Shown here: positions 43,998 to 64,000 of the stretch, in pieces
How positions within the stretch are numbered: position 1 is the stretch's first letter
How the letters are laid out: every line of letters begins with the position of its first letter
DNA from: Pedobacter zeaxanthinifaciens
Lineage (GTDB): Bacteria > Bacteroidota > Bacteroidia > Sphingobacteriales > Sphingobacteriaceae
DNA length: 64,000 bases
Assembly: GCF_003313335.1 (NCBI RefSeq)
Contig: NZ_QMHP01000005.1
Coordinates: 248,001 to 312,000, forward strand
Reading direction: 5' to 3'
Position numbers and translations under genes: made by a program
The notes under the pieces: model-generated
What the model saw: the letters and a program-made list of their open reading frames with translations, nothing else
Databases searched by the model: none
What the model was told of the DNA's origin: nothing

Positions 43998-44615
43998 TTA
44001 CTTATCTAAGATTACGTAAGAACCTTTAGCTCCTGGTACGGAACCGCTAACTACTACTAGGTTTTGCTCAGGATAAACTTTCAATACTTGTAAGTTTTGA
44101 ACTTTTACTCTGTCGCCACCTGTTCTACCCGCCATACGCATACCTTTGAATACACGTGAAGGCCAAGAAGAAGCTCCCAATGAACCTGGTGCACGCATCC
44201 TGTTGTGCTGACCGTGAGTTTGACCACCCACACCACCAAAACCGTGACGTTTTACCACACCTTGGAAACCTTTACCTTTTGAAGTTCCCACAACATCTAC
44301 ATAGTCACCTTCAGCGAAGATGTCTACAGTAACCGTGTCGCCTAAGTTTAAAGTTGCTTCAAACTCGCCGAACTCAACCAATTTACGTTTTGGAGTTGTG
44401 TTTGCTTTTGCGTAATGGCCTTTTAATGGCTGCGTTACGTTTTTCTCTTTTGCTTCATCAAATCCTAACTGGATTGACGAATAACCGTCTGTTTCTTCGG
44501 TTTTAACTTGTGTTACAACACAAGGCCCAGCTTCGATTACAGTACAAGGAATGTTTCTTCCTTCTGCATCGAAAATACTGGTCATTCCTACTTTTTTTCC
44601 AATAATTCCTGACAT
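43998..44615 (-). CDS. rplC: 50S ribosomal protein L3
   Basis: 205 residues from the Met at 44615 ([20 protein letters not shown]), the conserved L3 start; the frame runs on upstream into the leader but that part is not protein-like. It has [20 protein letters not shown] and [20 protein letters not shown]. It is the first gene of the superoperon in this window; rpsJ is not next to it. A full promoter and about 70 nt of leader lie upstream. Confidence 0.97.
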
Positions 44616-44639
44616 TTCTTTAATTAAGTTAACACCCAT

Positions 44640-44657
44640 CGAAGCAGTAGGGCTTCG
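44640..44657 (-). promoter_or_regulatory. Leader hairpin upstream of rplC
   Basis: CGAAGC and GCTTCG pair around a 6-base loop, 24 nt before the rplC start codon. It could slow or control rplC translation, perhaps through L3 or L4; no direct evidence. It is not followed by a T-run. Confidence 0.45.
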
Positions 44658-44692
44658 TTCAAGGTGGATATACAATCCCCGCAAAGGGACGG

Positions 44693-44723
44693 CAAAGATA
44701 GGCAAGAATTATTAATTTTCAAA
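44693..44723 (-). promoter_or_regulatory. Main promoter of the ribosomal superoperon
   Basis: The minus strand has TTTG (44720-44723), 19 bases, then TATCTTTG (44693-44700), a perfect consensus. It is followed by CCGTCCC, GC-rich like the other ribosomal promoters. An 8-bp inverted repeat (TCAAATAG 44719-44726, CTATTTGA 44760-44767) overlaps the -33 element. The 163 bp between this repeat and the DUF1634-type gene (to 44930) hold nothing I can support. Confidence 0.88.
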
Positions 44724-48383: not shown

Positions 48384-48400
48384 CACCTAGTGCTATTTTT
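48381..48400. terminator. Compact terminator over two stop codons
   Basis: TAGCAC and GTGCTA form a 6-bp stem with a 3-base loop, followed by five T on the plus strand. The stop codon of the coiled-coil gene starts the hairpin, and the stop codon of the M14 gene on the other strand is at its end. Confidence 0.7.
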
Positions 48401-49613
48401 CCTTCAGTAATTCGGCCATTAGCACTTCCGCTACTTTTGTGGCTTTCTGTTTAATGTAAGGGCGAGGCGTGTTGTCGCCTACTTCATACGTTAACGCTTC
48501 GGCGTTAAGCACCTTACCCAGCCACGACTTTGATACGTTGCCCCCATTGCCAGACGGCTTAACAGTAGTCTTGTTATCTCCTTCAAAATCATGTAAGCCT
48601 TTTACCCATGCTGTGGTAAGCCCAGGAAAATTGGTATCTGGCCTATCCTCATTAGTGTAAAGCACATCATTAAAAGTCGAATGAAAATCCAAAGCAAAAT
48701 ATACCTTGGCTTTCTGTTTCTTTACTTTTTCCAATAAAAAATTTCTAACCGCTCGTGTTTCAGGCTGTTTAAAATCAATCCAATCCCTATTTAAATCTAC
48801 CCCGCCAAAATTATGACGCCAGTTACCTTCATCTACGCCATCGGGGTTTATCATTGGGATAATAACCAATTCGTAGTTGGCAATGAACTTTTTGGCAAGC
48901 TCAGTTTGCCCCAATAAAGTTTCAACAAACTGCATCATTGCCATGTAGCCTGATATTTCGGGCGGGTGTTGGCGACTTAGCACGACTACGATTTTCTTTC
49001 CATCACTTTTAGTTGAGTTTAGTGCAATGATAGGTTTGCCTGCAATACTTTTACCAATAACGGTTTGCGTTAACTGATAACGCTGCACCATTTGATTGTT
49101 CCATTGGTAAGATTGTGCAGAAGATATGATTTCTTGAGCGGCTAAAGTTAGCGTATCGGTGCCCAGTTGCAGTTTAAAAGACGCGGTTGTTTTCTCTTTG
49201 TTGAGTTTTACCGCATTAACAGCATCCCAAGTGCTGCCATTATGAGTTATTTTGGGCTGGTAACGATGTTTACTATCGGGATAAACCAAGTTAAGGTAGA
49301 TTTTTTTACCTGCCTTACCCCAAACCTTAAATGCAAACCACGGACTTTGATTGATGGGTTGGTTTTCCGGCTCGATGGTGATGTTAAAAGTACTATCATT
49401 AAGTTGGCTTAAGGCATTTAGCCTTGCAGCAGGAAACTTGTTGCTAAAAAACACACTTCCGTTTGCAAGCGCATAAATTTTGCGTTCCTGCAACTTAATA
49501 CTAACGGCCGTATTTACCGCATTGATTTGATCAGTTGAATTGACTTTTTTAACAGCACAAGCCTGAAAAAATAGTGCAGCAGTTAGTAGAAGGTAAAACT
49601 TAGGATATTTCAA
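48393..49613 (-). CDS. M14-family zinc carboxypeptidase lipoprotein
   Basis: 406 residues. A lipoprotein-type signal (TAALFFQAC, Cys 19) is followed by an N-terminal sandwich (about 35-160) and an M14 peptidase domain. The zinc motif HPPE is at 216-219, the substrate-binding GNWRHNFGGVDLNRDW at 263-278, the third zinc His at 311 (FALDFHSTFND) and the catalytic Glu at 377 (LTYEVGD). It is last in the SusCD locus. It would trim residues from the C-terminus of peptides, or act on gamma-linked peptides, outside the cell. Confidence 0.92.
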   Translation of the reverse strand: MKYPKFYLLLTAALFFQACAVKKVNSTDQINAVNTAVSIKLQERKIYALANGSVFFSNKFPAARLNALSQLNDSTFNITIEPENQPINQSPWFAFKVWGKAGKKIYLNLVYPDSKHRYQPKITHNGSTWDAVNAVKLNKEKTTASFKLQLGTDTLTLAAQEIISSAQSYQWNNQMVQRYQLTQTVIGKSIAGKPIIALNSTKSDGKKIVVVLSRQHPPEISGYMAMMQFVETLLGQTELAKKFIANYELVIIPMINPDGVDEGNWRHNFGGVDLNRDWIDFKQPETRAVRNFLLEKVKKQKAKVYFALDFHSTFNDVLYTNEDRPDTNFPGLTTAWVKGLHDFEGDNKTTVKPSGNGGNVSKSWLGKVLNAEALTYEVGDNTPRPYIKQKATKVAEVLMAELLKEK

Positions 49614-49615
49614 TG

Positions 49616-50569
49616 TTATTTATCTAAAAGTAAACCATAATGATTTTTCATGTATTTAATAATGGCATCGGCAATTTTTATACCTGAAGCTTTACGTTGT
49701 GTAGCATTATTTCTTAAATCGGTGCCATGTGTTTCCAATTGTATGGCTGATACCGTGCCACCATTTCTTGAACCATAGGTTAGCGTACAATACCCTCCAT
49801 TAAAATAGTCGTCATCGTTAGGTGTTGGATCTGTTTTACTTGGTACTGCAGGGATTCCTTCATTGGCCAAAAGCGTACCAAAGGCATAATCACCTCTGAT
49901 AAGTTGCGAAAAAGAGTAGGCAGATGTAGTAGATAGCTGATAAATACTTGAGGTATTAGCAACACCATTCAAAGTGGCATCTGAAGCATTTAAGTTTGAT
50001 CTGGATACAATGTAGCCCACTTCAACCCTTTTTTTGGTATGACCATGACCATGCATATCCAAAAACAAGCCTTTACCTACATTTTTAGCCACCATGTCCC
50101 TTGCAGATTTCAAAAAGCCGTGGTACTCTCTCCAAAGGGCATTTGCAGCCTCACTTTTATGATAAGCCTCCTCTAACGAACGATTAGGCTCCATGCGTTC
50201 CCTTGCCACGTCGTTAACAATAACATGCGGATGAATTCCAGTTTTTGCATAAAAAGCGCTGGCAATTTCCTCTACCAAATCAGTTACATACAAATCCCTT
50301 ACGGTTACGGCATCCGGATTATCCCTAAATGGCATAGTTGAAGGAGTAATGGTGCCATCATGCGGAGAAGCTAAAATAATTGGAGAATTAGCATCGCCAA
50401 CTTCAAACCTCACATATTTATTGCTTCCGTAAATGATGGTATTAGGCTTATAAGCAGTTTCATCAGGTTTGGTAGGATTTCCGCCGTCGCCGCTACTACT
50501 TGAGTTCTTTTTGCAAGATAAGATGATAGACAAAGCCATCATCAACGCCAATAAATTAATCTTTTTCAT
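49616..50569 (-). CDS. N-formylglutamate-amidohydrolase-like lipoprotein
   Basis: 317 residues from the internal Met at 50569; the earlier start would lack a signal. MKKINLLALMMALSIILSC is a lipoprotein signal (Cys 19). The core has SPHDG (69-72), EPNRS (128-131) and LDMHGHGH (170-177), the metal site of the N-formylglutamate amidohydrolase superfamily, which also includes poly-gamma-glutamate hydrolases of M14-like fold. It is 2 bp before the M14 gene. An amide-cleaving role on glutamate-rich or formylated peptides fits, but is inferred. Confidence 0.85.
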   Translation of the reverse strand: MKKINLLALMMALSIILSCKKNSSSSGDGGNPTKPDETAYKPNTIIYGSNKYVRFEVGDANSPIILASPHDGTITPSTMPFRDNPDAVTVRDLYVTDLVEEIASAFYAKTGIHPHVIVNDVARERMEPNRSLEEAYHKSEAANALWREYHGFLKSARDMVAKNVGKGLFLDMHGHGHTKKRVEVGYIVSRSNLNASDATLNGVANTSSIYQLSTTSAYSFSQLIRGDYAFGTLLANEGIPAVPSKTDPTPNDDDYFNGGYCTLTYGSRNGGTVSAIQLETHGTDLRNNATQRKASGIKIADAIIKYMKNHYGLLLDK

Positions 50570-50626
50570 ATCTATTGATTTTAATTGTCTGCTAATACCG
50601 GGCAACAGTTAGCGTGTTTCAACTGG

Positions 50627-51271
50627 CTAAATCATTCCCTTTTTGCTCCACATCTTTAATATTTCCCCAACAATGTTGCCCACACCATAAGCTGGATCTT
50701 CCTCTGTTTTGCGCCCCCATTTATATGCTTTATCAACTTTGTTATCATGCCTAAATCCTCTTACATGCGTAAATTCATGGGCAATATGTCTGGCTAAGCG
50801 CTGTGCAAGCTCTCCGTTTTCAACCAACCAATAATCATAAGTAGTGATGCTATAGCTACAGGCATTGGAAGAGCCCATAGTCCCTTTCTTATCGCCATTA
50901 TTTTTTATATTGATGGTTAGGTTAACTTCTTTATCTGCCAATAAATTATCGTAAACAGCTTTTCCGGGTATGCGACCAGTTGTTTGATCATACACTACCT
51001 CAAAACACTTCTTTTTAGATTTGCTGTATGCGGAATCGTTGTAGTTTTGTTTATATAGCGCCTCTTTAAAATCTGCAGAAGAAAATACCCTACTTAACAA
51101 TTGTTCGGCCTTTCTTAGTGTATCGGCAAAATGACTAGGCACAGTAGCTTTTTCATCCACATTAAAAGAAATTTTAAAACGAATATCAGCTACAACACTT
51201 GGCTTTTCGGCAAATATGTTTATGGCAACAAGTGCTAAAATTACAAGCAGCAGCCATCCTAGTTTTTTCAT
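50627..51271 (-). CDS. Small metzincin-like secreted metalloprotease
   Basis: 214 residues with one N-terminal signal or anchor helix (MKKLGWLLLVILALVAINIF). The zinc motif HEFTHVRGFRHD lies at 165-176, an exact HExxHxxGxxHD metzincin pattern. No long propeptide or extra domain is seen, and a Met-turn is only suggested by the final KGMI. It is much smaller than known metzincins. It lies in the SusCD locus between SusD and the amidohydrolase. Function as a protease is inferred. Confidence 0.75.
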   Translation of the reverse strand: MKKLGWLLLVILALVAINIFAEKPSVVADIRFKISFNVDEKATVPSHFADTLRKAEQLLSRVFSSADFKEALYKQNYNDSAYSKSKKKCFEVVYDQTTGRIPGKAVYDNLLADKEVNLTINIKNNGDKKGTMGSSNACSYSITTYDYWLVENGELAQRLARHIAHEFTHVRGFRHDNKVDKAYKWGRKTEEDPAYGVGNIVGEILKMWSKKGMI

Positions 51272-51385
51272 AATGCTAACATTTAATTTGAAGATTTAAC
51301 CTAAAATAACAGGCAAAAAGAGTGACCGTAAGGAGCAATTAGCTTGCTCCCTCAGTCTTAACATATATAACTAACTTACTATTAA

Positions 51386-52930
51386 CTAGGGATTTTGAAC
51401 CATGTAGGGATTAGCCTGCATCTCACGGCGTGGAATTAAGAATTGCCATGTTACAGCGCCTCTTGCACGATCCATTGCATTGGCTAATGTAGAGGTAGCA
51501 CCTGTATTTGCTCTAGCTAAAGCAAGATCTAACCTCTTCAAATCCAAGAAACGAAAGCCCTCGCCCCACAATTCTATTCGGCGTTGGGTCATAATTAAAC
51601 CGTTATTATCGTTACCAATATCTGTAATGTTATCAGGGCGCACATAATTTGGATCCCTATTTTTCGCTAAAATATCTATAATATCAGCCGCCTCATTGAT
51701 GAAACCATCTTTTGCTTTTGCTTCCGCTGCAATGAGATACATTTCTGCTACACGCATGAATGGAATATCGCCGGCACTAACGGCAGGATCAGCTACTACA
51801 AACTTTTTATGCATGTACAAAGCCCTAGTTTGGCCGGCTGCTGGCTGTCCTGTTGAGGCATCAATTACACCCGGAAAATTCACATAATCGTTTACATTAT
51901 CGCAAAACAACTTTTTCCTGATATCAGTATTACTAAGCGAATTGTACAAAAGCGAGTTAATTTTTTTAGGATTTGGCCTGGTATGTGCCGAATTGAAATT
52001 TGAAGACATGTAAGCGTAAAACGAACCGTAAGTTGGCAGTTGCTCAGGCAATTGGTGCGCACCCCACATCCATTCAGAGTTTTTCATGTCTGTAAAACCA
52101 TCCAAATACGCAGAGTTGGACATTAACTGATATCCTTTTAGTGCTTCTAGTGCATAATAAGCTGCATCAGTCCAGTTTTGCTGAGTTAAAGCAACCCTTG
52201 CTTTCAATCCTTGAGCCACACTTTTATCAATGTGTGTTCTGTATAACCCTCTTGCTGGTGCGCCGGTTAACATCACAATCGCTTCATCTAAATCTTTATT
52301 AATTTGAATGTAAACATCTTCGACGGTATTGCGTGGTTGTGGGTCCAAAGAGTATTTAGTAACAATAGGCACTCCAAGTTGTATCCTTGGTGAATTTGGA
52401 TTGGAAATATCTGTTAGTATAGATTTATCGTAACGTTTGCCGAAGAGTTGCACCAACATGAAATGCGAAAAAGCCCGAAGTGCTAAACACTCCCCTTTTA
52501 TTGCATTTTTTTGTGCTGTAGTTGCATCAGGCACCTTATCAATACCTTCTAACAACAAATTTGCATTAGCAATTATCCTGTAATAAAGGCGGTAGGCAAA
52601 ATAAGGCAGGTCGTTCAAATCAGAGCGATGGTCTGTCCAACGGTAAGCGCCCCTGAAGTAACTTGTACCCGTTGCCGTATGAACGATATCTTCGCCCATG
52701 AAATCCATCACAATCATGATGGCAGCGTGACCATCCTGTTCCTGATCAGAATATTGCATGTACAACCCACGATAGATACCGTTAAGTGCCACCTTTACAT
52801 TGTTGATGTTATCAAATATCTTGTCCGCATCAATTTGATCAGTTGGAACGGTATCTAAGTATGACTTTTTACATGAACCTAGTAGCAGTAAAAAGAAAAA
52901 AGCTGGCAGAATTAAAAAATATTTTTTCAT
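51386..52930 (-). CDS. SusD/RagB-family lipoprotein
   Basis: 514 residues with a lipoprotein signal (FFFLLLLGSCKK, Cys 20) and the start SYLDTVPTDQI typical of RagB/SusD. It has the helical TPR-like body and a C-terminal LWGEGFRFLDLKRLDLA. It binds substrate at the cell surface as the lid of SusC. It follows SusC after 11 bp. The neighbouring enzymes suggest peptides, not glycans, as the substrate. Confidence 0.95.
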   Translation of the reverse strand: MKKYFLILPAFFFLLLLGSCKKSYLDTVPTDQIDADKIFDNINNVKVALNGIYRGLYMQYSDQEQDGHAAIMIVMDFMGEDIVHTATGTSYFRGAYRWTDHRSDLNDLPYFAYRLYYRIIANANLLLEGIDKVPDATTAQKNAIKGECLALRAFSHFMLVQLFGKRYDKSILTDISNPNSPRIQLGVPIVTKYSLDPQPRNTVEDVYIQINKDLDEAIVMLTGAPARGLYRTHIDKSVAQGLKARVALTQQNWTDAAYYALEALKGYQLMSNSAYLDGFTDMKNSEWMWGAHQLPEQLPTYGSFYAYMSSNFNSAHTRPNPKKINSLLYNSLSNTDIRKKLFCDNVNDYVNFPGVIDASTGQPAAGQTRALYMHKKFVVADPAVSAGDIPFMRVAEMYLIAAEAKAKDGFINEAADIIDILAKNRDPNYVRPDNITDIGNDNNGLIMTQRRIELWGEGFRFLDLKRLDLALARANTGATSTLANAMDRARGAVTWQFLIPRREMQANPYMVQNP

Positions 52931-52941
52931 TATTGAACGAA

Positions 52942-55900
52942 CTATAATGTAATGTTTAAACCAAAACTGATGATACGAGAAGGTGCGTAGGTATACTCAG
53001 CATCTCCTGTGTAAGTTTGCGTAGGATCCATACCTTTTCTTGCCGAAGTAATGAACAAATTCTCTCCATTTACAAAGGCTTTTGCATTAGTTAATTTCAA
53101 CCTTGAAAGCATTTTTTTAGGAAGGCTATAAGTTAATGCAACGGTACGCAGGTTCAAGTAATCTGATTTTGTTAACCAACGGTCGGTATCAGAAATAGAT
53201 GATGAAGTGCTAAGTACAGGAATATCAGTTACATCGCCAGGATTTTGCCAGCGTTTTAACATATCTACGTGTAAAGCCCTACCATTGGTAGTGGTACCAC
53301 CTCTGAACATTAGTGAGCGATAATCGTTATCGAACGTGTAACCACCAACCTGATAAATGAACATGACATTTAACGACCAGCTTTTGTAGCTGAAGCCATT
53401 ATTTACGCTACCGAAAAAATCAGGAATTGCACTACCTGCGTAATAATAGGTGGCATCAGCCAAAGTAGTTGTTAAAGTGCCATCTGCTTTGCGGTATTGG
53501 TTTGCCCCTGTTTCTGGATTTACAGAATCCCAATCTCTCAACCAAAATTCGTAAAGTGATTTACCCGTTTCGTATTTTTTAGTTCCACTTACCCTACCTT
53601 CATAAGATGGTGGCAATGACAAGATCTTATTTCTAAACGTACTCCAATTAATATCAATGTTCCATTTAAAACGCTTAGTTTTTAGGGGAACTCCATTCAA
53701 CTGCACTTCAACACCTTCGTTACGCATGGTGCCGAAATTGTCGTTATAAGTAAGTAAGCCCGATGTTAAAGGTAAAGTAACGGCAAACAGCAAATTGCTC
53801 GACTGGCGACGAAATGCTTCTACCGTACCGCCAAACCTATTTTTAAATACCGAAAACTCTACTGCTACATCTGCATTTTGATTGGATTCCCAAACCAAAT
53901 CGTTATTACCAGCCTGTGTAAATAAAGCTCCTGGCTCGCTACCGTTGTTGTAGTTTAACGTATATAAACGTTGATAAGTGAAATAACTTCCGGTACGATC
54001 ATTACCTACCTGACCGTAAGATGCTCTAAGTTTTAAGGCATCTACCCACTTAACTTTGAAGAATGGCTCTCTATCAATATTATATGCTGCACTAAGCGAC
54101 CAGAAGTTGCCCCATCTGCTAGAAGGCGAAAATCTGGAAGTACCATCTCTCCTGAATGAACCAGAGAACAAATATTTTCCTTTGTAGCTATAGTCAATTT
54201 TTGACAAGTAACCTTCAGTTTTATAATCTCTATCATAAGACCCTAAAGCTGTAGTAGTTGTCATGTTATCCAGTACAGGTAAACCCGCTATTCCTTCGCT
54301 TCGTCTTGATCCCGATAGGTAATCATAATAATTAAGGTAGTTTTCGTGACCAACAAGTACACTAATTTTATGTTTGTTGATGGTTTTGCTCCAAGTTAAT
54401 AACTGATTAAAGTTTAAATAGGTTGTAAGGCTATTGGTTCTGGTAGTTCTACCCACGCCCACAGCATCACCCATTACGCTGTTATCATACACGTTGCTAC
54501 GATAGTTACCCAAAGTAAAACTGAAATTAGAAGTAAACTTGAAATCCTTCCAAAATTTAGCTTCGATATTGGCCACACCATTTAATGAGTTTCTTCTCAC
54601 TTGGTTAACGTTGTACAAAGTTTCATACACTACATTTCGGCCGGTAAACAACGGTCTGTAATCACCTGGATCATAAACTTTATTTCCTTTGTTGTCCAAA
54701 ATGTAAGCACCCGTTACCGGATCATGTTTGTACACAGGATAAATTGGTGCCAATATCAAATCGATGTAGAATGGATTTTCATTGATACCGCTGCTCTCGT
54801 TAGCCTGATCAGATTTGGTGTAAGTACCAAATAAATTCAATCCAAATTTCAGCCAATCTTTAGGCGTTGAGTTTACCCTTAACCTGCCGGAAAAACGCTT
54901 AAAATCCGAACCAATCACGTAACCGTTTTCGTCCAAATAATTAAGTGAAACATAATGATCTGTTTTAGCAGAACCGCCACTTAGCGATACTGACATGTCC
55001 GACCTCATGCCTAATCTCTGCAACTCTTCCCGGAAACGCACATCATCAGGATATAATAATTTAGCGTTTGGATTTAACTGTCCGTTTTCTAAAACAATTT
55101 CGTCATCAGCTACATTAAACGGATTCCAACCTACGTAGCTTTTTAAATTGGCCGTAGCGGCTGCCGCAGTGCCAGAAGTTCCATTTTTTAGTGCTTCCCA
55201 CACAATTGGAAAGTATTGGTAAGCATCTAAAGTTTCATAATTTGGCAAGCCACGCTCAGAAAAAGCCTGTGTTAGCTTTGCAGTAATGGTGGTTTTGCCG
55301 TTGCTATTTCCTTTTTTAGTAGTGATTAATACTACGCCGTTAGCTGCCCTAGCACCATACAATGCTGTTGCTGAGGCATCTTTCAAAATGGAAATATTGT
55401 CAATATCTTCTGGATTGATGTTACTGATTACACCTTCGTAAGGTGCACCATCAAGCACATACAATGGGTTATTATCACCTGTGATTGAGCCAAACCCTCT
55501 GATTCTGATATCTGGTCCTTCGCCCGGCTGCCCGCTACCTGCCGTAGTTTGCACACCTGGTGAAGCCCCAACAATTGCAGAGTTTAAGTTACTGATAGGG
55601 CGTTGCTCGATATCTTTAGCTGAAATTTTGGTAACCGAATTGGTAAGCTCGTTACGTGTAGTAGTTCCAAAAGCAATTACTACCTCATCTAGCTGTTTGC
55701 TATCACGGGTAAGCGTAACTTCGTATTTTAATAAGGCCGTTAATGGAACTTCCTTAGTAACATAACCAATTGAACTAAATACCAATATTTTTTCGGTAGA
55801 CTTCACATTGATTGCAAAATTACCTTCCACATTGGTAACCGCACCTGTAGTAGCACCTTTTACCCTAACGGATACGCCAAACAATGCCGAACCGTCTTCA

Positions 55901-56364
55901 GCATCAGTTACCTTTCCTGTAATGGTCCTATCCTGCCTAGCCTGCGTAGTGTTAGCTGCCAAGTCGTTTGCATGGTCAATAGGTTTTACAGAAATGATCT
56001 TATCTTCTATAGTGTAGCTTAAGGACATTCCCTTAAGTACAGATGACAAAACCACATCAATTGGCGCATTGGAAAAGTTAGCAGACACCCTTTTTTCATC
56101 TGAAACTTCCTTACTATTATAAATGAAATAATAGTTGGTTTGATTCCTCAGCTCCTTGAACATTTCCTTTAAAGTAATGTTTTGTTTTTTGATGCTTACG
56201 TTTTGAGCAAGTGTTTTGGCACTTAGCTGTAAACTGAAAACAAACACGATTACTGCAATGATTCTCATAACCAGTAAAGCTTTTTTAAATAGTTGTTTTT
56301 GTTTGGTCGAAAAATCGCAACTAAAAATAGCGTACGACAATCTACAATGTATTTTTTCTTTCAT
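52942..56364 (-). CDS. SusC/RagA-family TonB-dependent transporter with STN domain
   Basis: 1140 residues. It has a long N-terminal presequence with a signal (ending LSAKTLAQ near 53), then an STN domain (about 60-130, VSIKKQNITLKEMFKELRNQ) that contacts FecR for regulation. A carboxypeptidase-regulatory domain (about 146-225), a plug (about 225-350, with LDGAPYEGVISNINPEDIDN) and a beta-barrel ending GLNITL follow. It imports the substrate with SusD. Its own transcription is likely driven by the sigma factor at 59998. An 11-bp stem lies before it, after fecR. Confidence 0.96.
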   Translation of the reverse strand: MKEKIHCRLSYAIFSCDFSTKQKQLFKKALLVMRIIAVIVFVFSLQLSAKTLAQNVSIKKQNITLKEMFKELRNQTNYYFIYNSKEVSDEKRVSANFSNAPIDVVLSSVLKGMSLSYTIEDKIISVKPIDHANDLAANTTQARQDRTITGKVTDAEDGSALFGVSVRVKGATTGAVTNVEGNFAINVKSTEKILVFSSIGYVTKEVPLTALLKYEVTLTRDSKQLDEVVIAFGTTTRNELTNSVTKISAKDIEQRPISNLNSAIVGASPGVQTTAGSGQPGEGPDIRIRGFGSITGDNNPLYVLDGAPYEGVISNINPEDIDNISILKDASATALYGARAANGVVLITTKKGNSNGKTTITAKLTQAFSERGLPNYETLDAYQYFPIVWEALKNGTSGTAAAATANLKSYVGWNPFNVADDEIVLENGQLNPNAKLLYPDDVRFREELQRLGMRSDMSVSLSGGSAKTDHYVSLNYLDENGYVIGSDFKRFSGRLRVNSTPKDWLKFGLNLFGTYTKSDQANESSGINENPFYIDLILAPIYPVYKHDPVTGAYILDNKGNKVYDPGDYRPLFTGRNVVYETLYNVNQVRRNSLNGVANIEAKFWKDFKFTSNFSFTLGNYRSNVYDNSVMGDAVGVGRTTRTNSLTTYLNFNQLLTWSKTINKHKISVLVGHENYLNYYDYLSGSRRSEGIAGLPVLDNMTTTTALGSYDRDYKTEGYLSKIDYSYKGKYLFSGSFRRDGTSRFSPSSRWGNFWSLSAAYNIDREPFFKVKWVDALKLRASYGQVGNDRTGSYFTYQRLYTLNYNNGSEPGALFTQAGNNDLVWESNQNADVAVEFSVFKNRFGGTVEAFRRQSSNLLFAVTLPLTSGLLTYNDNFGTMRNEGVEVQLNGVPLKTKRFKWNIDINWSTFRNKILSLPPSYEGRVSGTKKYETGKSLYEFWLRDWDSVNPETGANQYRKADGTLTTTLADATYYYAGSAIPDFFGSVNNGFSYKSWSLNVMFIYQVGGYTFDNDYRSLMFRGGTTTNGRALHVDMLKRWQNPGDVTDIPVLSTSSSISDTDRWLTKSDYLNLRTVALTYSLPKKMLSRLKLTNAKAFVNGENLFITSARKGMDPTQTYTGDAEYTYAPSRIISFGLNITL

Positions 56365-56433
56365 ACATTTGTATATAAGGGTTTTGAATAAATAGTGGTT
56401 TCGTTTATTGTTATTTCATTTGGGCCTTTTATT

Positions 56434-56461
56434 GCTTTTCTCGGTTGCCGCCGAGAAAAGC
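56434..56461 (-). terminator. Hairpin between fecR and susC
   Basis: GCTTTTCTCGG and CCGAGAAAAGC form a perfect 11-bp stem with a 6-base loop. It lies 18 bp after the FecR stop codon and 70 bp before the SusC start. On the minus strand it is followed by AATAAAA, not a T-run, so it may be an mRNA end-stabiliser rather than a full terminator. Confidence 0.5.
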
Positions 56462-56478
56462 CTTTTTACCCTTCTTGG

Positions 56479-57681
56479 TTATTTCTTCATCTTCTTTTCG
56501 CAGGTAATTACATTATTTTCAATTCCAAAAACTACATCTCCCGTAAGCTCCAACGTTTTTAAAACCTTTGATACGTTGGTATTTCTAGGAATTACACCGG
56601 TAAATGAGATATCGGGCTTTTCACCTTCGTACTTGATTTTAACATCGTACCAACGTGTCAACTCTTTCATGATCTCATCAATACTTGTGTTGTTAAATAC
56701 AAACAAATCATTTTTCCAAGCCATTACTTCTTCAATATTGGCCTCTTGTTGTTTGGTTTCGTTCTCACTTTCAGTATAGATAATCTGTTTGCCCGGCTTC
56801 AACAATTGCGATTGCCCATTTTTAGTAAACTGCACTGAGCCTTCAAGCAAAGTAAGCGCTGAGCGGTACTCATCCGGATAAGCCATCACATTGAAGTGCG
56901 TACCCAGCACTTTGATTTCAGAACTGCCATTGCGTACGTAAAAAGGTTTACGCTTATCTTTCGCTATTTCAAAATAAGCCTCGCCTTTGATCTCCACCCT
57001 TCTGGCATCACCTGTAAATGCTGCCGGAAACTTAATTGATGAGCTAGCATTTAGCCAAACTTTACTACCATCAGAAAGCACTAAACTAAATTTTCCTCCA
57101 GCTGGTGTTGAAAGCGTATTAATTTTGGGTGTCGCTTCATCTGATTGGTTTTTTGCCACATAAACAATCTGCCCATTCGCATCCTTTTCAATCAAGATAT
57201 CACCTTGAGTGGCAAGTTTGCCGGCGGCAGTATGATCCAAAACAATTTCAGAACCATCCGAAAGTGTCAACACAGCTTTTTCACTACCGGGCAATACATC
57301 ATTATGATAAGCCAGTGGACTAGACTTTTGGTAAGAGTGGTTAGCGGTGTAATAAATTGTTACACTGGCCACAACCAATACCACCGCGGCCGCAACGTAC
57401 TTCCAAAGTGGCTTACGCTCACGACCAGCCAACTTTTTTGGGTTGGTAATATTTGCATACATCCCATCCCAGTCTATTTCGTGTACAAGCGCATCAGATT
57501 GCACTTTTTTATTATGTTCATCCAAAAATGCCAAAACCTCATCTTTGGTTTCTGGATTTCTTATGTAAACAAATAACTCGGCATACTCTTCCTCCGTGAT
57601 GCTCTTGTCTACATATTTTTGGAAAAGTTCCGCTAATCTGTCATTTGTTCCTAGTGTCATCTGATGTTCTTGATTGTCCAT
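56479..57681 (-). CDS. FecR-family anti-sigma factor
   Basis: 400 residues. The N-terminal cytoplasmic part (about 1-90) binds the sigma factor, one membrane helix lies at about 94-112, and the FecR domain is at about 190-285 (LSTPAGGKFSLVLSDGSKVW). A DUF4974/STN-like C-terminus (about 325-395) has LTRWYDVKIKYEGEKPDISF. It carries the signal from SusC to the sigma factor at 59998-60591. A beta-helix gene separates it from sigma. Confidence 0.94.
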   Translation of the reverse strand: MDNQEHQMTLGTNDRLAELFQKYVDKSITEEEYAELFVYIRNPETKDEVLAFLDEHNKKVQSDALVHEIDWDGMYANITNPKKLAGRERKPLWKYVAAAVVLVVASVTIYYTANHSYQKSSPLAYHNDVLPGSEKAVLTLSDGSEIVLDHTAAGKLATQGDILIEKDANGQIVYVAKNQSDEATPKINTLSTPAGGKFSLVLSDGSKVWLNASSSIKFPAAFTGDARRVEIKGEAYFEIAKDKRKPFYVRNGSSEIKVLGTHFNVMAYPDEYRSALTLLEGSVQFTKNGQSQLLKPGKQIIYTESENETKQQEANIEEVMAWKNDLFVFNNTSIDEIMKELTRWYDVKIKYEGEKPDISFTGVIPRNTNVSKVLKTLELTGDVVFGIENNVITCEKKMKK

Positions 57682-57702
57682 TTATACATTTATTGTCGTT
57701 AA

Positions 57703-59838
57703 TTATTTCACGACCAATAATGTTTGCTTTTCTTCACTCAGTTTACCTTTGTTGATCCATAAAATGTAAGCACCTTTTGGAACGTTGGTTAAATCAAGTT
57801 TTAAACCTTCTTGTGTAGTTGTTTGAGCGTAATTATTGGTCAGTACGGTTTTACCCGTCAAAGATATTAGATTTAAGGAAACTGCACCCTCAACTGACGA
57901 TGGAACTACATTAACATAGTTGCCCGCCGGATTTGGATACACCTTAGCAGATGCAAGCAAATCAAATCTTAAGCTTTGTATGCCTAAAACTTCCGAATTG
58001 CCATTTTTATCGTATTGTGTTAAACGGTAGTAGTTTAATCCCGAAAGCGGCGAAAAGTCAGTTAATGAATAACTTAACGGCGAATTGCTATCGCCAGCAC
58101 CTGCAACTTCCTTTAAAATCTTGAAATCAGCTGGTGATGAGCCTCGTTCGATAACAAATTTGCTATTGTTTTGCTCACTTGCTGTTTTCCAAGTAAGAAC
58201 GGCCGATGCTCCTTTTTTAGCCACGTTAAACGAAAGCAGCGAAACTGGCAACGTACCTTGGAACTCATAGGCTCCCAAATCAACTACCCCGCTTGATACA
58301 CGGCTGTTCCCCGCCAAATCAGTAGTGATGCCAACTGGAATTAACGTATTATCTCCTTTTTGAGTTGCTTCGCCTTCTACAAGTTGTAGGAAATTCAAAT
58401 CAGTAGCTACGGTGCTTGCAAACAATAAAGTGGGAGTTGCATTAACGATATTTCCATTTACACCGTTAGTTGCCACTGTAGTTGTTTGCATTAAACAGTT
58501 TTTTACCGTGAACGATGCACCGGTATTTCCTGCCGCAATATATACATCGCCTTCATTACCGTTAAAAATTGAGTTCTGTAACGTAATTTTTTGTGTAGTA
58601 GCCGAAGTAAAAAATGCTATTGCACCACCATTATTTGCGTTAGAAGCATTGGTGTTAGTATTGTTGTAAAATGTGCAATTGGTTAACACCGCATCGGTAT
58701 AGGTTGAATTATAAATTGCCCCACCATAAGTAGCATTGTTTGCTGTATTATTAGCAAATACACCATTGGTGATACTAGGCGCTGCGTTATTAGAAGCTGT
58801 ACCACCCAAATACATAGCTGCCCCACTAGATGCGGTATAATTGGCTAAAAACTTACAATTGGTATAGGTAGAGCTTGTACCATAATTATAGACTGCACCA
58901 CCAGCAGAAGTAGATTTATTATTTGAAAACACAACGTTTAAGCAAGTAATTTTCGACGAAGTTGCTGTACCATTTGTAATTGCGCCACCTGAACCTGCAG
59001 TGGCTTCGTTGCCATCAAAAGTTGTGTTGGTAAACGTAGGCTGTGCAAAACTCGACAAATAAATTGCTCCACCCTCAAGGGCAGTATTGTTTGTAAATTT
59101 AACATTGGTAAATGTTGGATAAATATAGGCCGTTGTTAAACCAAGCATATAAATTGCTCCACCATTATTGGCCGATTTATTATTTTTAAATTCTACATTA
59201 TTCAATGTAGCTGAACTATATAAAAAATATGCAGCTCCGCCATTTTGTGAAACGGTGGCATTCTCATTATCTGATATGATTAAATTTTCAAAAGTTGCCC
59301 CAGTGGTTGAACTCAAAAATAAACCTGCTGCTCTACCTTGGTGAAAACTGCCTCCATTAATTGTTGGTGTCGTTGTTCCATCGGCATAGCCCGCAGTAAT
59401 TGTAAAACCATCTAATCTGGCTCCAACCATATTGCCGGTAACTGCCACAACATGGTACACATTATCGGTTTTAACCCCAACAGTGCCAATATCTCCACTT
59501 AAAATAGTTAGGTTGGCGGCTACGTCTCTCGCTGATAAAACTGCCTCAGTACCTACAAAACCTCCATAAACACTAACACCTTGCTTAAGCAGGAAAGTTT
59601 TGTCTCTATCCGTAGTTGAGCTACCAGGAGCAATTGTTGGTTTATAAGTTCCAGCTGCAACCCACACCTGATCTCCAGAAGAAGACGCATTAATCACAGT
59701 CTGTAAGTCGGCAGCTGCATCAGCCCAACTTGTACCATCACCGGCGCCCGTTGCTATTGGTTTAACATAGCGAACAGTTTGCGCAAATGTTGTTAGAGAG
59801 CCTAATACAATTAGAAATAATAAGTAAATTTTTCTCAT
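57703..59838 (-). CDS. Secreted beta-helix protein with type IX sorting tail
   Basis: 711 residues. A signal peptide (MRKIYLLFLIVLGSLTTFAQ) is followed by the RYVKPIATGAGDGTSWADAA start, then a right-handed beta-helix (about 120-500) with repeats of NNGGAIYMLG type, as in polymorphic outer-membrane proteins. The C-terminus is a type A sorting domain (VYPNPAGNYVNVVPSS to KQTLLVVK). It lies between the sigma and FecR genes, 21 bp before FecR, so its transcript may carry both. It is an adhesin or surface protein of unknown target. Confidence 0.9.
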   Translation of the reverse strand: MRKIYLLFLIVLGSLTTFAQTVRYVKPIATGAGDGTSWADAAADLQTVINASSSGDQVWVAAGTYKPTIAPGSSTTDRDKTFLLKQGVSVYGGFVGTEAVLSARDVAANLTILSGDIGTVGVKTDNVYHVVAVTGNMVGARLDGFTITAGYADGTTTPTINGGSFHQGRAAGLFLSSTTGATFENLIISDNENATVSQNGGAAYFLYSSATLNNVEFKNNKSANNGGAIYMLGLTTAYIYPTFTNVKFTNNTALEGGAIYLSSFAQPTFTNTTFDGNEATAGSGGAITNGTATSSKITCLNVVFSNNKSTSAGGAVYNYGTSSTYTNCKFLANYTASSGAAMYLGGTASNNAAPSITNGVFANNTANNATYGGAIYNSTYTDAVLTNCTFYNNTNTNASNANNGGAIAFFTSATTQKITLQNSIFNGNEGDVYIAAGNTGASFTVKNCLMQTTTVATNGVNGNIVNATPTLLFASTVATDLNFLQLVEGEATQKGDNTLIPVGITTDLAGNSRVSSGVVDLGAYEFQGTLPVSLLSFNVAKKGASAVLTWKTASEQNNSKFVIERGSSPADFKILKEVAGAGDSNSPLSYSLTDFSPLSGLNYYRLTQYDKNGNSEVLGIQSLRFDLLASAKVYPNPAGNYVNVVPSSVEGAVSLNLISLTGKTVLTNNYAQTTTQEGLKLDLTNVPKGAYILWINKGKLSEEKQTLLVVK

Positions 59839-59997
59839 GAATTGTTGGTTTAGGGTTTGTTGATGCTATATAGACTAGTTAGCCTGCACAACGGACCGTT
59901 TTTTAACCAACTTTTTTATTTTTTATAGAGAACTGCGATTTGACAAGCCATTGATATGATTTGAAAACTATGGCGAAGGTATGGCAAGAAGATTTTT

Positions 59998-60591
59998 TTA
60001 TAGGAAAAACTTCAACAGTAGCAGTAATGAAACCGTGATGTTATGTTTAGCAATATGATATTTAAGATGCTTAAGCACCTCAACAATGACGTTTTTAACT
60101 CTACTTTTTGAGAGCCCAACCGCCTGCGCTATTTCTTCGTGACTCATATGCTGAGTACGGCTCATTTGAAATATTTCCTGCTTTTGCAGCGATAAGGTTT
60201 GCAAAACTTTGTTGATCAAAAAAGTACTTTCTTTCAAGTTAATTTGATCATCAATATTATTTAAAGAAGTAGAGGTGTTGATCCAGGCGTTGTTAATGGT
60301 TTTTTCTGTACGGCTAATTTTTGCCAAATAATCGTAAGTTTTGTTACGGGCAATGGTGTAGATGTAGTTACGCGGATGTTCTATGGAAAGTAACTTATCT
60401 CTGTTTTGCCAAATTACCAAAAAAGTCTCTTGCACTATTTCTTCGGCGTCAGCTTTACTGTGCACAAACGAATCAACAAAAGCAAGTATCTTGCCTCTGT
60501 AAAGACAAAACATTTTATTAAATGCTAGAGAATTTCCATCTGAAATTTCTTTTAGCAATAGCTTTTCTGCCGTTAAATCGTACAATGCCAT
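59998..60591 (-). CDS. ECF sigma factor (FecI-like)
   Basis: 197 residues. Sigma region 2 (about 25-95, with DAEEIVQETFLVIWQNRDKL) and region 4 (about 130-180, with MSHEEIAQAVGLSKSRVKNV) are clear. It would drive the FecR-SusCD locus when released by FecR. Two tandem terminators separate it from the PorP gene upstream. Confidence 0.95.
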   Translation of the reverse strand: MALYDLTAEKLLLKEISDGNSLAFNKMFCLYRGKILAFVDSFVHSKADAEEIVQETFLVIWQNRDKLLSIEHPRNYIYTIARNKTYDYLAKISRTEKTINNAWINTSTSLNNIDDQINLKESTFLINKVLQTLSLQKQEIFQMSRTQHMSHEEIAQAVGLSKSRVKNVIVEVLKHLKYHIAKHNITVSLLLLLKFFL

Positions 60592-60819: not shown

Positions 60820-61722
60820 TTATTTATATAAATTAATTTTTAGCCCTAATTCTACATTTCCATAGGTATATTTTTGCAGATTACTGTTAATTGGCAGCGA
60901 ATATGAAGCTTGCAATTGATATTTACTCAAAATATTAAAGCCAACACCGAAAGAAAGGTTGTTGCTGGTGTGATAAAATGCAAGCAAATTAAATTTGTCT
61001 TCCAAAAATTGAGCATTCACTCCAAGATCCAAAACACTTTCGTACCCTTTTAAGCCTCTAAACATCGCCTTTGGCGTTAGCTTAATTGTACCATCCGTAA
61101 CCTGATAGGCTGCGGCCGCATAAAATGTGGTGTAATTGTAACCATCGTTTACATTTTCTGTATAGATTAAACTGCGCAAATTAGGTGCAACCACGCTCAA
61201 GCTCAATTTATCGGTGGCATAATTAACACCTAAATCACCATCAAAAACATATCCTTGATCATTAAATTGCGAAGGAATCGGATCATCTAAATCTCCAATC
61301 ACATCAGCCATATTAACTTTTAAGGAAGTTACGCCGGCAGACAAACCAAACCGTAAATTTCCATTTGCTGATGTCTTTAAATTATAAGCATAAGTAGCCG
61401 AAAACCTGTTGACATTTAAAACGCCATCCTTATCAGTATTTACAGTTAAGCCAAACCCACTTTTACCCATGCCGTAATCAAGGGTCAAGGTATTTGCAAC
61501 AGTTTGCCCATTACTTCCTGTTAAGTTATTTTTATAGAAAGCGCCTAAATTTAAGCCCTCCTTCTTTCCTGCCATAGCAGGATTGTAAAGGTATTCGTTA
61601 AGGTAGTACATAGAAAGTGGCGGACTAACCTGTGCCACTAATTTTGATGACAGCAAAAAAAGTGCAGTAGTAAGGACGATATAAGTGATGTTATTTTTTT
61701 TCATTGTTGTTTGGTTAAACAA
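60820..61722 (-). CDS. PorP/SprF-family type IX secretion protein
   Basis: 300 residues (a few less if the Met six codons in is the start). A signal peptide ([20 protein letters not shown]) is followed by [20 protein letters not shown], the PorP/SprF start. It is an outer-membrane beta-barrel that works with the CHU_C-tailed surface protein upstream (31 bp between them). It is a partner in attaching type B tailed adhesins. It is followed by two terminators. Confidence 0.93.
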
Positions 61723-61753: not shown

Positions 61754-64000
61754 TTATCTCCCTTTAAGGATAGTAATTGTTCCTTTTACCGGTGGAAGTC
61801 CCGCTCCAATATTGATTTCGTAGTAATAAGTACCGGCATTTAAAGTTGCGCCATTAAAGCTTCCATCCCAATCATTTTGGTAATTGGCTTTTTTGAAAAC
61901 CGTTTTACCAACTTTATCATACACAATCACCTCATTTTTAGGATACATCACCTGTAAATCGGTAACTATCCAGAAATCATTTTTACCATCGCCATTTGGC
62001 GTTAAAATATTATTCGCCACTATTTGACCGCTATAAAGCCTTAATACAGTGCTGGTTTTAGGACTTGGATTACTAGTTCCCAAGCTGTTGCTAGCCACTA
62101 CATAAAACGTATGAGCGCCCGGACTTAACTCATCAGTAAAGTTGTAAACCCATTCTCCCTTATCGTTAGAAAATGCAGTTACACTATGCGCTTTATCATC
62201 AACATAAATGGTAATTACACTTAGTGGCTCAGCTAATCCACTCAATTTAGGTCTGAAGCTGGTTAATATGCCATTGCTCACATTTGCAATAATTGGCGCC
62301 TGTGGATCCTCCATCAAATTATTTAATGAAACTATAACCCTCAATACCTGCTCACCGCCAACATTGTTAAATACCTTAACCGTTAAAGTAAACGATCTTA
62401 CCTTTTCGTAATCAAGCTCGGTACTTTTTGCAACTGTGATATTTCCAGTAGTTGGACTAATAGCAAATGTATCGTTGAAATTACCGCTGATGATTGTCCA
62501 GTTTGTAATCACCCCCGTAAGCGTAGTTACCGGTTTTGCCACAAAGGAACCATTGGCCAAATTTTCATCTATGGTAACTTGTAGCGGCGGTACCGGTGCA
62601 GCACCACCAAACTCGAAAGCACCCATATCTAAAATCAAGTTGTTGATACGAGCTTGGCCCGCCAAATCTAAATTAACACCTAACGGCAAGAAAGAACTTT
62701 GCCCGGCGTCAATTGCCGGACTGAAATCCTGCAGATATAAAAATTTCGAATTGCTTGGATCTACACTTTCAAATACCGGATCCTGTCCAACTAAATTTCC
62801 ATCAACACCATTTGTCCCGTAAGCTTCGGTCAAAGTAGCTTTCACTACTAAATTTGCGGGAGTAGCAGTGTAAAAATCTACGGTTGGTAATTCGCCAGCT
62901 AAATTTTTATAAGAGATACTATTATATACCGTTGCCTGGCCACTTGAGGCCACATAGATGGCACCGCCTCTGGAAACGGCCTTGTTGCCATAGAAAGTGG
63001 CATTATGAATTACTGGAGCGGCATTGGTAGACACGTAAATTCCCGCACCGCCACCAGAATTGGTATTGCTTTCGTTGTTATAGAATAAGTTATTAATTAA
63101 TACCGGGCTGGCTAAATTTCCGGTAACGCCAAATAAATAGATGGCTCCGCCGCTAGTAGCTGCTTTGTTGCCAATAAATTTCACGTTTCGCATTTGCGGA
63201 CTGTTGGCATTTAGGTACAAGGCACCTGCGGTAGTGCTGGCTTCGTTAGCCGAAAAAGTTACTTCATTTATGGTAGATGTTAATGTGCTGGTACCTAAAT
63301 AAACGCCGGCTGCCGAACTTGCCTTATTTGCCGTAAACGTTGAACCTGATAAATTTAACGTACCAGTAGTAAAGTAAATACCAGCTCCGCTACCTCCGGC
63401 AATGTTACTATTAAAAGTACAGTTGGTTACGGTAACAGTGGTACCCAAGGCATTGCTGATTGCTCCTCCATTAGTAAGGGCATTATTGTTGCTAAAGTTG
63501 CACTCGGTAAATGTTGCACTAGCCGATGCAGAGTTCATTAAAACTGCTCCTGCAGTGGTAGACAATGATTTGTTACCATCAAAAATACATTTGGTAAAAA
63601 CCGGCGCTCCAGCAGTGGAAACCGCAATTGCCCCGCCTGAGTTAGCTTCATTTCCTATAAACTCCACTTCATTAAATATTGGAATAGATGGCGTAGCTGC
63701 AGCGCTAAATATGAAAATTGCGCCTCCACTTCCTCCGGTAGCTTTATTATTGATGAACTTTACTTTGGTGTAGGTTGGCGAGCCATAAAAGATATACGTT
63801 GCTCCTGCACTTTGATCGGTAGAAGCGTTAAGGTTATCTCTAATAATTAAATTTTCGTAAGCTGCGCTGCTGTAGTAATTGATAATACCTGGCGACCTGC
63901 TTGGAGGGATGGCGTTACCGTTTACTGTAACAGCATTACCAGTTCCAGTACCACTACTGTAGCCCTTAGTTATGGTAAATCCATCTAATTTAGCCGTACC
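61754..64000 (-). CDS. Large beta-helix surface protein with CHU_C tail (partial)
   Basis: At least 748 residues; the frame is open to the right edge, and the first Met-like codon inside (GTG at 63667) is not the start. The first part has LDGFTITKGYSSG and beta-helix repeats (NNGGAISNALG type), as in the protein at 57703. A cadherin-like and an Ig-like region (about 390-660) follow. The C-terminus is a gliding-motility type domain, ILTPNGDGKNDFWIVTDLQV to KGTITILKGR. It is the likely cargo of the PorP-like protein next door. Confidence 0.92.
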   Translation of the reverse strand, partial: GTAKLDGFTITKGYSSGTGTGNAVTVNGNAIPPSRSPGIINYYSSAAYENLIIRDNLNASTDQSAGATYIFYGSPTYTKVKFINNKATGGSGGAIFIFSAAATPSIPIFNEVEFIGNEANSGGAIAVSTAGAPVFTKCIFDGNKSLSTTAGAVLMNSASASATFTECNFSNNNALTNGGAISNALGTTVTVTNCTFNSNIAGGSGAGIYFTTGTLNLSGSTFTANKASSAAGVYLGTSTLTSTINEVTFSANEASTTAGALYLNANSPQMRNVKFIGNKAATSGGAIYLFGVTGNLASPVLINNLFYNNESNTNSGGGAGIYVSTNAAPVIHNATFYGNKAVSRGGAIYVASSGQATVYNSISYKNLAGELPTVDFYTATPANLVVKATLTEAYGTNGVDGNLVGQDPVFESVDPSNSKFLYLQDFSPAIDAGQSSFLPLGVNLDLAGQARINNLILDMGAFEFGGAAPVPPLQVTIDENLANGSFVAKPVTTLTGVITNWTIISGNFNDTFAISPTTGNITVAKSTELDYEKVRSFTLTVKVFNNVGGEQVLRVIVSLNNLMEDPQAPIIANVSNGILTSFRPKLSGLAEPLSVITIYVDDKAHSVTAFSNDKGEWVYNFTDELSPGAHTFYVVASNSLGTSNPSPKTSTVLRLYSGQIVANNILTPNGDGKNDFWIVTDLQVMYPKNEVIVYDKVGKTVFKKANYQNDWDGSFNGATLNAGTYYYEINIGAGLPPVKGTITILKGR

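Follow-up and report, generated by a model that had tools for sequence, protein, structure and literature searches.

A conserved SusCD locus without glycosidases in Pedobacter, proposed to take up a gamma-glutamyl amide polymer

Introduction

What does a SusCD locus import when the enzymes encoded beside the transporter are predicted to cleave amide bonds and none of them is a glycosidase? The question was raised by a locus in a stretch of 64,000 nucleotides of Pedobacter zeaxanthinifaciens DNA (contig NZ_QMHP01000005.1, positions 248,001 to 312,000; hereafter the window), which belongs to a genome assembly of 4.25 Mb. To our knowledge, SusCD systems have been studied almost only for glycans. 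The original prediction saw here a dedicated system for a peptide or amide polymer and named protein fragments, poly-gamma-glutamate (gamma-PGA, the amino-acid polymer of Bacillus slime) and wall peptides as its possible substrates. The dedicated system stood, as the unit was conserved in several genera without glycosidases and its enzymes were linked, and the three substrates were narrowed: the neighbour evidence favoured gamma-glutamyl polymers, most specifically gamma-PGA. Judging from gene content and gene neighbourhood, we consider it rather probable that the locus serves SusCD-based nutrient uptake of a gamma-glutamyl amide polymer, with gamma-PGA as the most likely one.

Results

Gene content of the locus

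Protein families were assigned by Pfam and NCBIfam profile searches with curated cut-offs. The eight predicted genes were found in the expected order, all on one strand:

59998..60591, minus strand: extracytoplasmic function (ECF) sigma factor of the Bacteroidetes FecI-like family (Sigma70_r2/r4 Pfam; TIGR02985 119.7 bits, cut-off 126.4)
57703..59838, minus strand: beta-helix protein with a type A sorting tail of the type IX secretion system (T9SS) (Por_Secre_tail, Beta_helix, TIGR04183)
56479..57681, minus strand: FecR-type anti-sigma factor (PF04773, PF16344)
52942..56364, minus strand: SusC/RagA TonB-dependent transporter with STN domain (TIGR04056 749 bits, STN, CarbopepD_reg_2, Plug)
51386..52930, minus strand: SusD-family surface lipoprotein (PF14322, PF07980; nearest solved chain 3lew, SusD-like)
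50627..51271, minus strand: HExTHxxGxxHD zincin-like protein (HExxH; invariant motif, no family above cut-off)
49616..50569 (open reading frame from TTG 50605), minus strand: FGA1, N-formylglutamate-amidohydrolase-like lipoprotein (PF05013 25.9 bits; fold)
48393..49613, minus strand: M14 carboxypeptidase lipoprotein of the cytosolic carboxypeptidase (CCP) group (PF00246 67 bits, Pepdidase_M14_N)

The adjacent susC and susD genes, ECF/FecR control and an STN-type SusC, all conserved in the homologous loci, define a SusCD utilization locus. The carbohydrate-active enzyme (CAZyme) that characterises a glycan-type polysaccharide utilization locus was absent, as predicted: no glycoside hydrolase, lyase or other CAZyme was detected in the window locus by the Pfam and NCBIfam profiles. 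The small gaps predicted among the last six genes were also present, namely 114 bp (FecR-SusC), 11 bp (SusC-SusD), 114 bp (SusD-HExxH), 21 bp (TTG start) or 57 bp (first ATG, 50569) between the HExxH gene and FGA1, and 2 bp (FGA1-M14). FGA1 probably starts at the ATG. The type A beta-helix gene sits between the sigma and anti-sigma genes, a position kept in most Pedobacter-clade loci.

Conservation of the gene order

The gene order, which the original prediction had proposed to look for in other Sphingobacteria, was conserved across Sphingobacteriaceae, and the named contigs carrying homologous loci were mostly from Pedobacter. The recurring arrangement was FGA2 - beta-helix - PorP - ECF - (beta-helix) - FecR - SusC - SusD - (0-2 HExxH) - FGA1 - (M14), seen in Pedobacter-clade genomes, in two genomes of other genera (G006 and G026) and, within the genus, in one that is more distantly related (G320). 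In further genera the FGA gene was placed elsewhere in the unit, yet SusCD, FGA and M14 remained together. No glycosidase was located inside any of the approximately 25 homologous loci, and the core of the window-type loci contained no unassigned gene of at least 110 amino acids. The linkage of the three enzymes was thereby supported, although not their equal standing: FGA and SusCD were nearly inseparable, some loci had lost M14 (two of these encoded an M28 peptidase and a gamma-glutamyltransferase, GGT, instead), and the HExxH gene, whose copy number ranged from 0 to 2, was seen outside the Pedobacter clade in one genus only.

FGA genes were rare, occurring in 20 of 146 genomes of the genus and in 13 of 395 genomes of the phylum sample, the own genome included. 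A SusD of at least 52% identity was likewise encoded in 20 of the 146 genomes, of which 19 were FGA-positive, with one genome carrying each gene alone (Fisher p ~1e-21, not corrected for phylogeny).

The FGA family

FGA1 scored 25.7-25.9 bits against PF05013, under the gathering cut-off of 28.9, and 33 of 39 family members matched this profile at E<=0.01. Searched with PF05013 at E<=0.001, the own genome gave no match; the standard model therefore misses the family in whole-genome scans. The weak sequence call was confirmed by the predicted structure of FGA1 (pLDDT 91.6), which indicated an N-formylglutamate-amidohydrolase fold: its best match in the PDB was the FGase 2q7s (E=1.6e-7), and fold similarity to N-acetylmuramyl-L-alanine amidases was weaker. 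Sequence searches of the PDB with the FGA and HExxH proteins gave nothing usable. Seven residues were invariant (H70, D92, R123, N129, D171, H173 and E279); the fold suggests roles for them in zinc binding, in carboxylate binding and as the general base, with H70, D92, H173 and E279 assigned to the metal site. Against the HutG equivalog TIGR02017 (cut-off 278.75 bits), FGA1 and FGA2 reached 12.8 and 24.6 bits. PF05908, the family of the gamma-PGA hydrolases PghP and PghL of phage origin, was matched by none of the 39 FGA members at E<=0.01. The placement of the enzyme in the amidohydrolase superfamily was not upheld, as by fold FGA lies outside that metal-dependent (TIM-barrel) superfamily and has a zinc carboxypeptidase-like fold, like PghP/PghL. 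The structures nearest to PghL, after PghP, are reported to be the FGases 2odf and 2q7s (PMC6506827). From its sequence and modelled fold, FGA1 is proposed to be a gamma-glutamyl hydrolase.

FGA1, FGA2, FGA3 and the FGA proteins linked to poly-gamma-glutamate synthesis (pgs) genes fell into different subclades. FGA1 grouped with its orthologues from G320, G006 and G026, which are linked to GGT, and FGA2 with several paralogues linked to GGT or racemase genes; some nodes were modestly supported. FGA3, the third paralogue, is encoded elsewhere in the genome (L045:7111-10241, contig C26), accompanies FGA1/FGA2 in most locus-bearing Pedobacter and in three genomes (this one and those of L083 and L103) adjoins a 661-residue alpha/beta-hydrolase-like protein.

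The M14 and HExxH proteins

The M14 catalytic pattern HxxE..R..NR..H..E was invariant in 13 homologues (H216, E219, R266, N275, R276, H311, E377), and the N-terminal domain scored 22.6 bits against PF18027, slightly under the cut-off of 23.2. Profile matches to bacterial CCP-like enzymes (4a37, 3k2k, 4b6z) and to CCP5 place the protein, by sequence, in the CCP group. CCPs are glutamate-removing carboxypeptidases, and the group includes deglutamylases. The HExTHxxGxxHD motif was invariant in 13 HExxH homologues; a search with these 13 members brought no Pfam family over its cut-off (Reprolysin_5 came closest, E=5e-4), and deuterolysin 1eb6 was a weak match to the modelled fold (E=0.004, probability 0.99). 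Motif and model suggest that the protein is probably a metallopeptidase, of which activity is only likely.

Neighbouring genes point to a gamma-glutamyl polymer

In orthologous loci of the same order from three genera (G320 L079, G006 L053, G026 L050), FGA1 was followed by an M28 peptidase and GGT; the GGT of G320 scored 570 bits against TIGR00066, and the G006 and G026 loci also encoded a symporter of the glutamate/dicarboxylate family (SDF). In a fourth genus (G076 L092), GGT lay beside FGA2-ECF-FecR-SusCD-M14. A second SusCD type, found in Parapedobacter and relatives (L057, L058/L042, L062), has a SusC about 30% identical to that of the window type; its loci carried 2-4 FGA paralogues together with GGT, an Asp/Glu racemase and D-aminoacylase-type amidohydrolases, and one of them also S58 and S66 peptidases. 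Overall, 11 of 42 genomes had GGT at most 15 kb from FGA, where random placement would give 0.57. Another, unrelated SusCD pair was observed adjoining FGA, an M81/MlrC-like metallopeptidase and a beta-lactamase-like protein (L067:3997-13174).

In distant lineages, FGA genes occurred near those for poly-gamma-glutamate synthesis, at distances of up to about 16 kb. The FGA cluster of G435 encoded PgsB (254 bits, cut-off 222.7), PgsC (123, 96.45), a PgsW-type protein (257, 100) and GGT (463, 358), and the clusters of G581 and G639 resembled it. In a Verrucomicrobium, GGT lay two genes from FGA and PgsC about 9 kb away; G495 likewise had GGT, a racemase and the accessory genes of these clusters, with no PgsC detected. 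Of 394 genomes sampled from the phylum, three had both FGA and PgsC where 0.37 would be expected (p=0.004), and in all three the genes were physically linked. PgsC was not found in the own genome, which therefore looks like that of a consumer, not a producer, of gamma-PGA. Its single GGT is unlinked to the locus and has a signal peptide-like N-terminus.

The synthesis cluster itself was conserved in distant Bacteroidota (L068, L074, L104, L108, L110, L114), with a DctM-like permease, an AstE/AspA-like hydrolase, a DUF6305 protein and a long GGT preceding PgsB-PgsC-PgsW; these four look like unrecognised parts of the gamma-PGA synthesis pathway.

Wider unit and genomic setting

The unit extended beyond the eight predicted genes, with two further genes upstream of the ECF gene:

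60820..61722, minus strand: PorP/SprF-family T9SS membrane protein (TIGR03519 150.6 bits, above cut-off; conserved position)
61754..64000, continuing to ~64423 beyond the window, minus strand: beta-helix protein with a type B T9SS sorting domain (TIGR04131 60.6 bits; complete gene L044:1754-4423)

Next comes another, divergent FGA gene, FGA2 (window-equivalent 64655-65545), which lies 655 bp past the window end. All three genes belong to the conserved neighbourhood, and the tie of such a T9SS surface protein pair to a nutrient locus is unusual. A terminator-like hairpin at 60808-60783, between the PorP and ECF genes, makes it probable that the upstream genes are on separate transcripts; a promoter scan of the locus performed no better than on shuffled sequence.

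The whole locus lies between rplC (window 43998-44705) and rpsJ (window-equivalent ~65764), two genes that usually adjoin each other at the junction of the str and S10 ribosomal operons. They were within 1.5 kb of each other in none of 13 genomes of the genus, whereas all 7 genomes from other families had them side by side. The junction is therefore split genus-wide, and the locus fills the gap here and in at least some related species.

Discussion

In gamma-PGA, the gamma-carboxyl of one glutamate is joined to the alpha-amine of the next. The C-terminal residue is therefore an N-acyl-glutamate, the half-site that is recognised by N-formylglutamate amidohydrolase. In the mechanism that we propose, by analogy with known FecIR/SusC systems, a substrate signal relayed by the STN domain of SusC and by FecR would release the ECF sigma factor and induce the operon. 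The SusCD pair would capture and import the polymer or its oligomers. FGA1 (as a lipoprotein), FGA2 and the elsewhere-encoded FGA3 would cut gamma-glutamyl amide bonds, acting, like the CCP-type M14 protein, from or near the C-terminal end, where M14 would remove the terminal glutamate. GGT takes residues off the N-terminal side (PMC4497714); in the relatives it may trim from that end to yield glutamate, and here it possibly acts in trans, the unlinked GGT of the own genome completing the pathway. The HExxH and T9SS-exported beta-helix proteins may be accessories, perhaps for surface binding or trimming.

Among the other explanations, the one that survives best, still an unlikely one, is that the locus imports small gamma-glutamyl peptides (glutathione, folate polyglutamate) or general peptides. 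GGT, the M28 peptidase and the SDF symporter would process glutathione, the M14 and HExxH proteins are peptidase-like, and RagAB is implicated in protein or peptide uptake (PMC11817032). However, the racemase and PgsBC associations are unsuited to glutathione or general protein, and the FGA family is not known as a general peptidase. Marginally less plausible is the import of peptidoglycan fragments, whose stem peptides contain gamma-D-Glu bonds that the enzymes would dismantle. Relatives do carry D-aminoacylase-type enzymes, the Asp/Glu racemase, the S66 LD-carboxypeptidase and beta-lactamase-like proteins beside FGA, and the weaker fold similarity of FGA to N-acetylmuramyl-L-alanine amidases is in keeping with such a role. 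Nevertheless, the linked genes included no recognisable muramidase, glucosaminidase or amidase_3, S66 occurred in one locus only, and the pgsBC-linked FGA favours gamma-PGA.

It is considerably more doubtful that this is an ordinary glycan locus with coincidental peptidases. SusCD loci mostly serve glycans, and the solved chains nearest to SusD by sequence are annotated as SusD-like carbohydrate-binding, a comparison that does not tell glycan and peptide binders apart; against this, glycosidases were missing from all homologous loci, and FGA and SusD occurred together in 19 of 20 genomes. Cyanophycin, the beta-aspartyl-arginine polymer, was rejected as a highly improbable substrate. It had been suggested by one Pedobacter group, in which the SusCD-M14-FGA unit is flanked by a gene for cyanophycinase (154.6 and 147.2 bits, against a cut-off of 126.6) and by one resembling beta-aspartyl peptidases. 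Yet neither the window genome nor any of seven close genomes that bear the locus has a cyanophycinase, whereas all nine FGA-negative Pedobacter of the sample do. In that group (L059, L080, L094, L095, L096), the two genes lie on one side of the unit and a DctA/GltP-like symporter on the other.

Several points weigh against a gamma-PGA substrate as well. The window locus contains neither GGT nor any gamma-glutamyl-specific enzyme of proven activity; the substrate is therefore assigned by association. The 11 GGT-linked genomes span about ten genera, yet they are not fully independent by phylogeny. FGA in the synthesis clusters belongs to a different subclade from FGA1 and may serve another role there, such as release or editing. 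The D-Glu-handling neighbour genes equally fit wall peptides, and GGT with a peptidase and a symporter also fits small gamma-glutamyl peptides. The fold match of FGA1 to 2q7s is remote (13% identity, TM 0.44-0.51). Finally, the relative abundance of Bacteroidetes fell, not rose, in one gamma-PGA rhizosphere transplant experiment (PMC11937826).

Our literature searches, with most subscription journals outside their coverage, found no gamma-PGA or FGase SusCD locus; for Flavobacterium polyglutamicum, a soil bacterium hydrolysing gamma-glutamyl bonds, they found literature in the folate context only. We see even chances for the fuller proposal, which joins a dedicated SusCD gamma-PGA system to a new FGase-fold hydrolase class common to makers (pgs clusters) and eaters of the polymer and to T9SS beta-helix surface partners. 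gamma-PGA resists common proteases (PMC4497714) and is regarded as too large for import without prior cutting (PMC11937826). If uptake of gamma-PGA by the locus is true, the well-known SusCD machine would have a new diet other than sugar, and Gram-negative soil bacteria a gamma-PGA uptake route. The exported FGase-like proteins, a family whose present name refers to histidine degradation alone, would gain a function, and new gamma-PGA depolymerases would become available for testing.

The locus resembles polysaccharide utilization loci and SusCD utilisomes in joining an ECF sigma factor, FecR, an STN-type SusC, SusD and lipoprotein hydrolases in one operon, but its hydrolases are predicted amide-cleaving zinc enzymes and glycosidases occur in none of its homologues. 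With RagAB of Porphyromonas gingivalis, implicated in non-glycan, peptide uptake, it shares the SusCD pair, which is here embedded with a dedicated FGA and M14 whose relatives point to gamma-glutamyl polymers. The M14 protein has the CCP-type N-terminal domain and M14 catalytic residues of cytosolic carboxypeptidases, whereas it is a predicted exported lipoprotein in a SusCD operon. FGA1 shares with HutG (PF05013/TIGR02017) the fold, the PHxG and DxHG motif pattern and the proposed N-acyl-glutamate chemistry; unlike HutG, it is a predicted exported lipoprotein, 13% identical to 2q7s, far under the HutG cut-off, SusCD-linked, and pgs-linked in homologues. Like the gamma-PGA hydrolases PghP/PghL, whose nearest structural neighbours are reported to be FGases (PMC6506827), it appears to have a zinc carboxypeptidase-like fold, but in place of a PF05908 match it is a remote member of PF05013.

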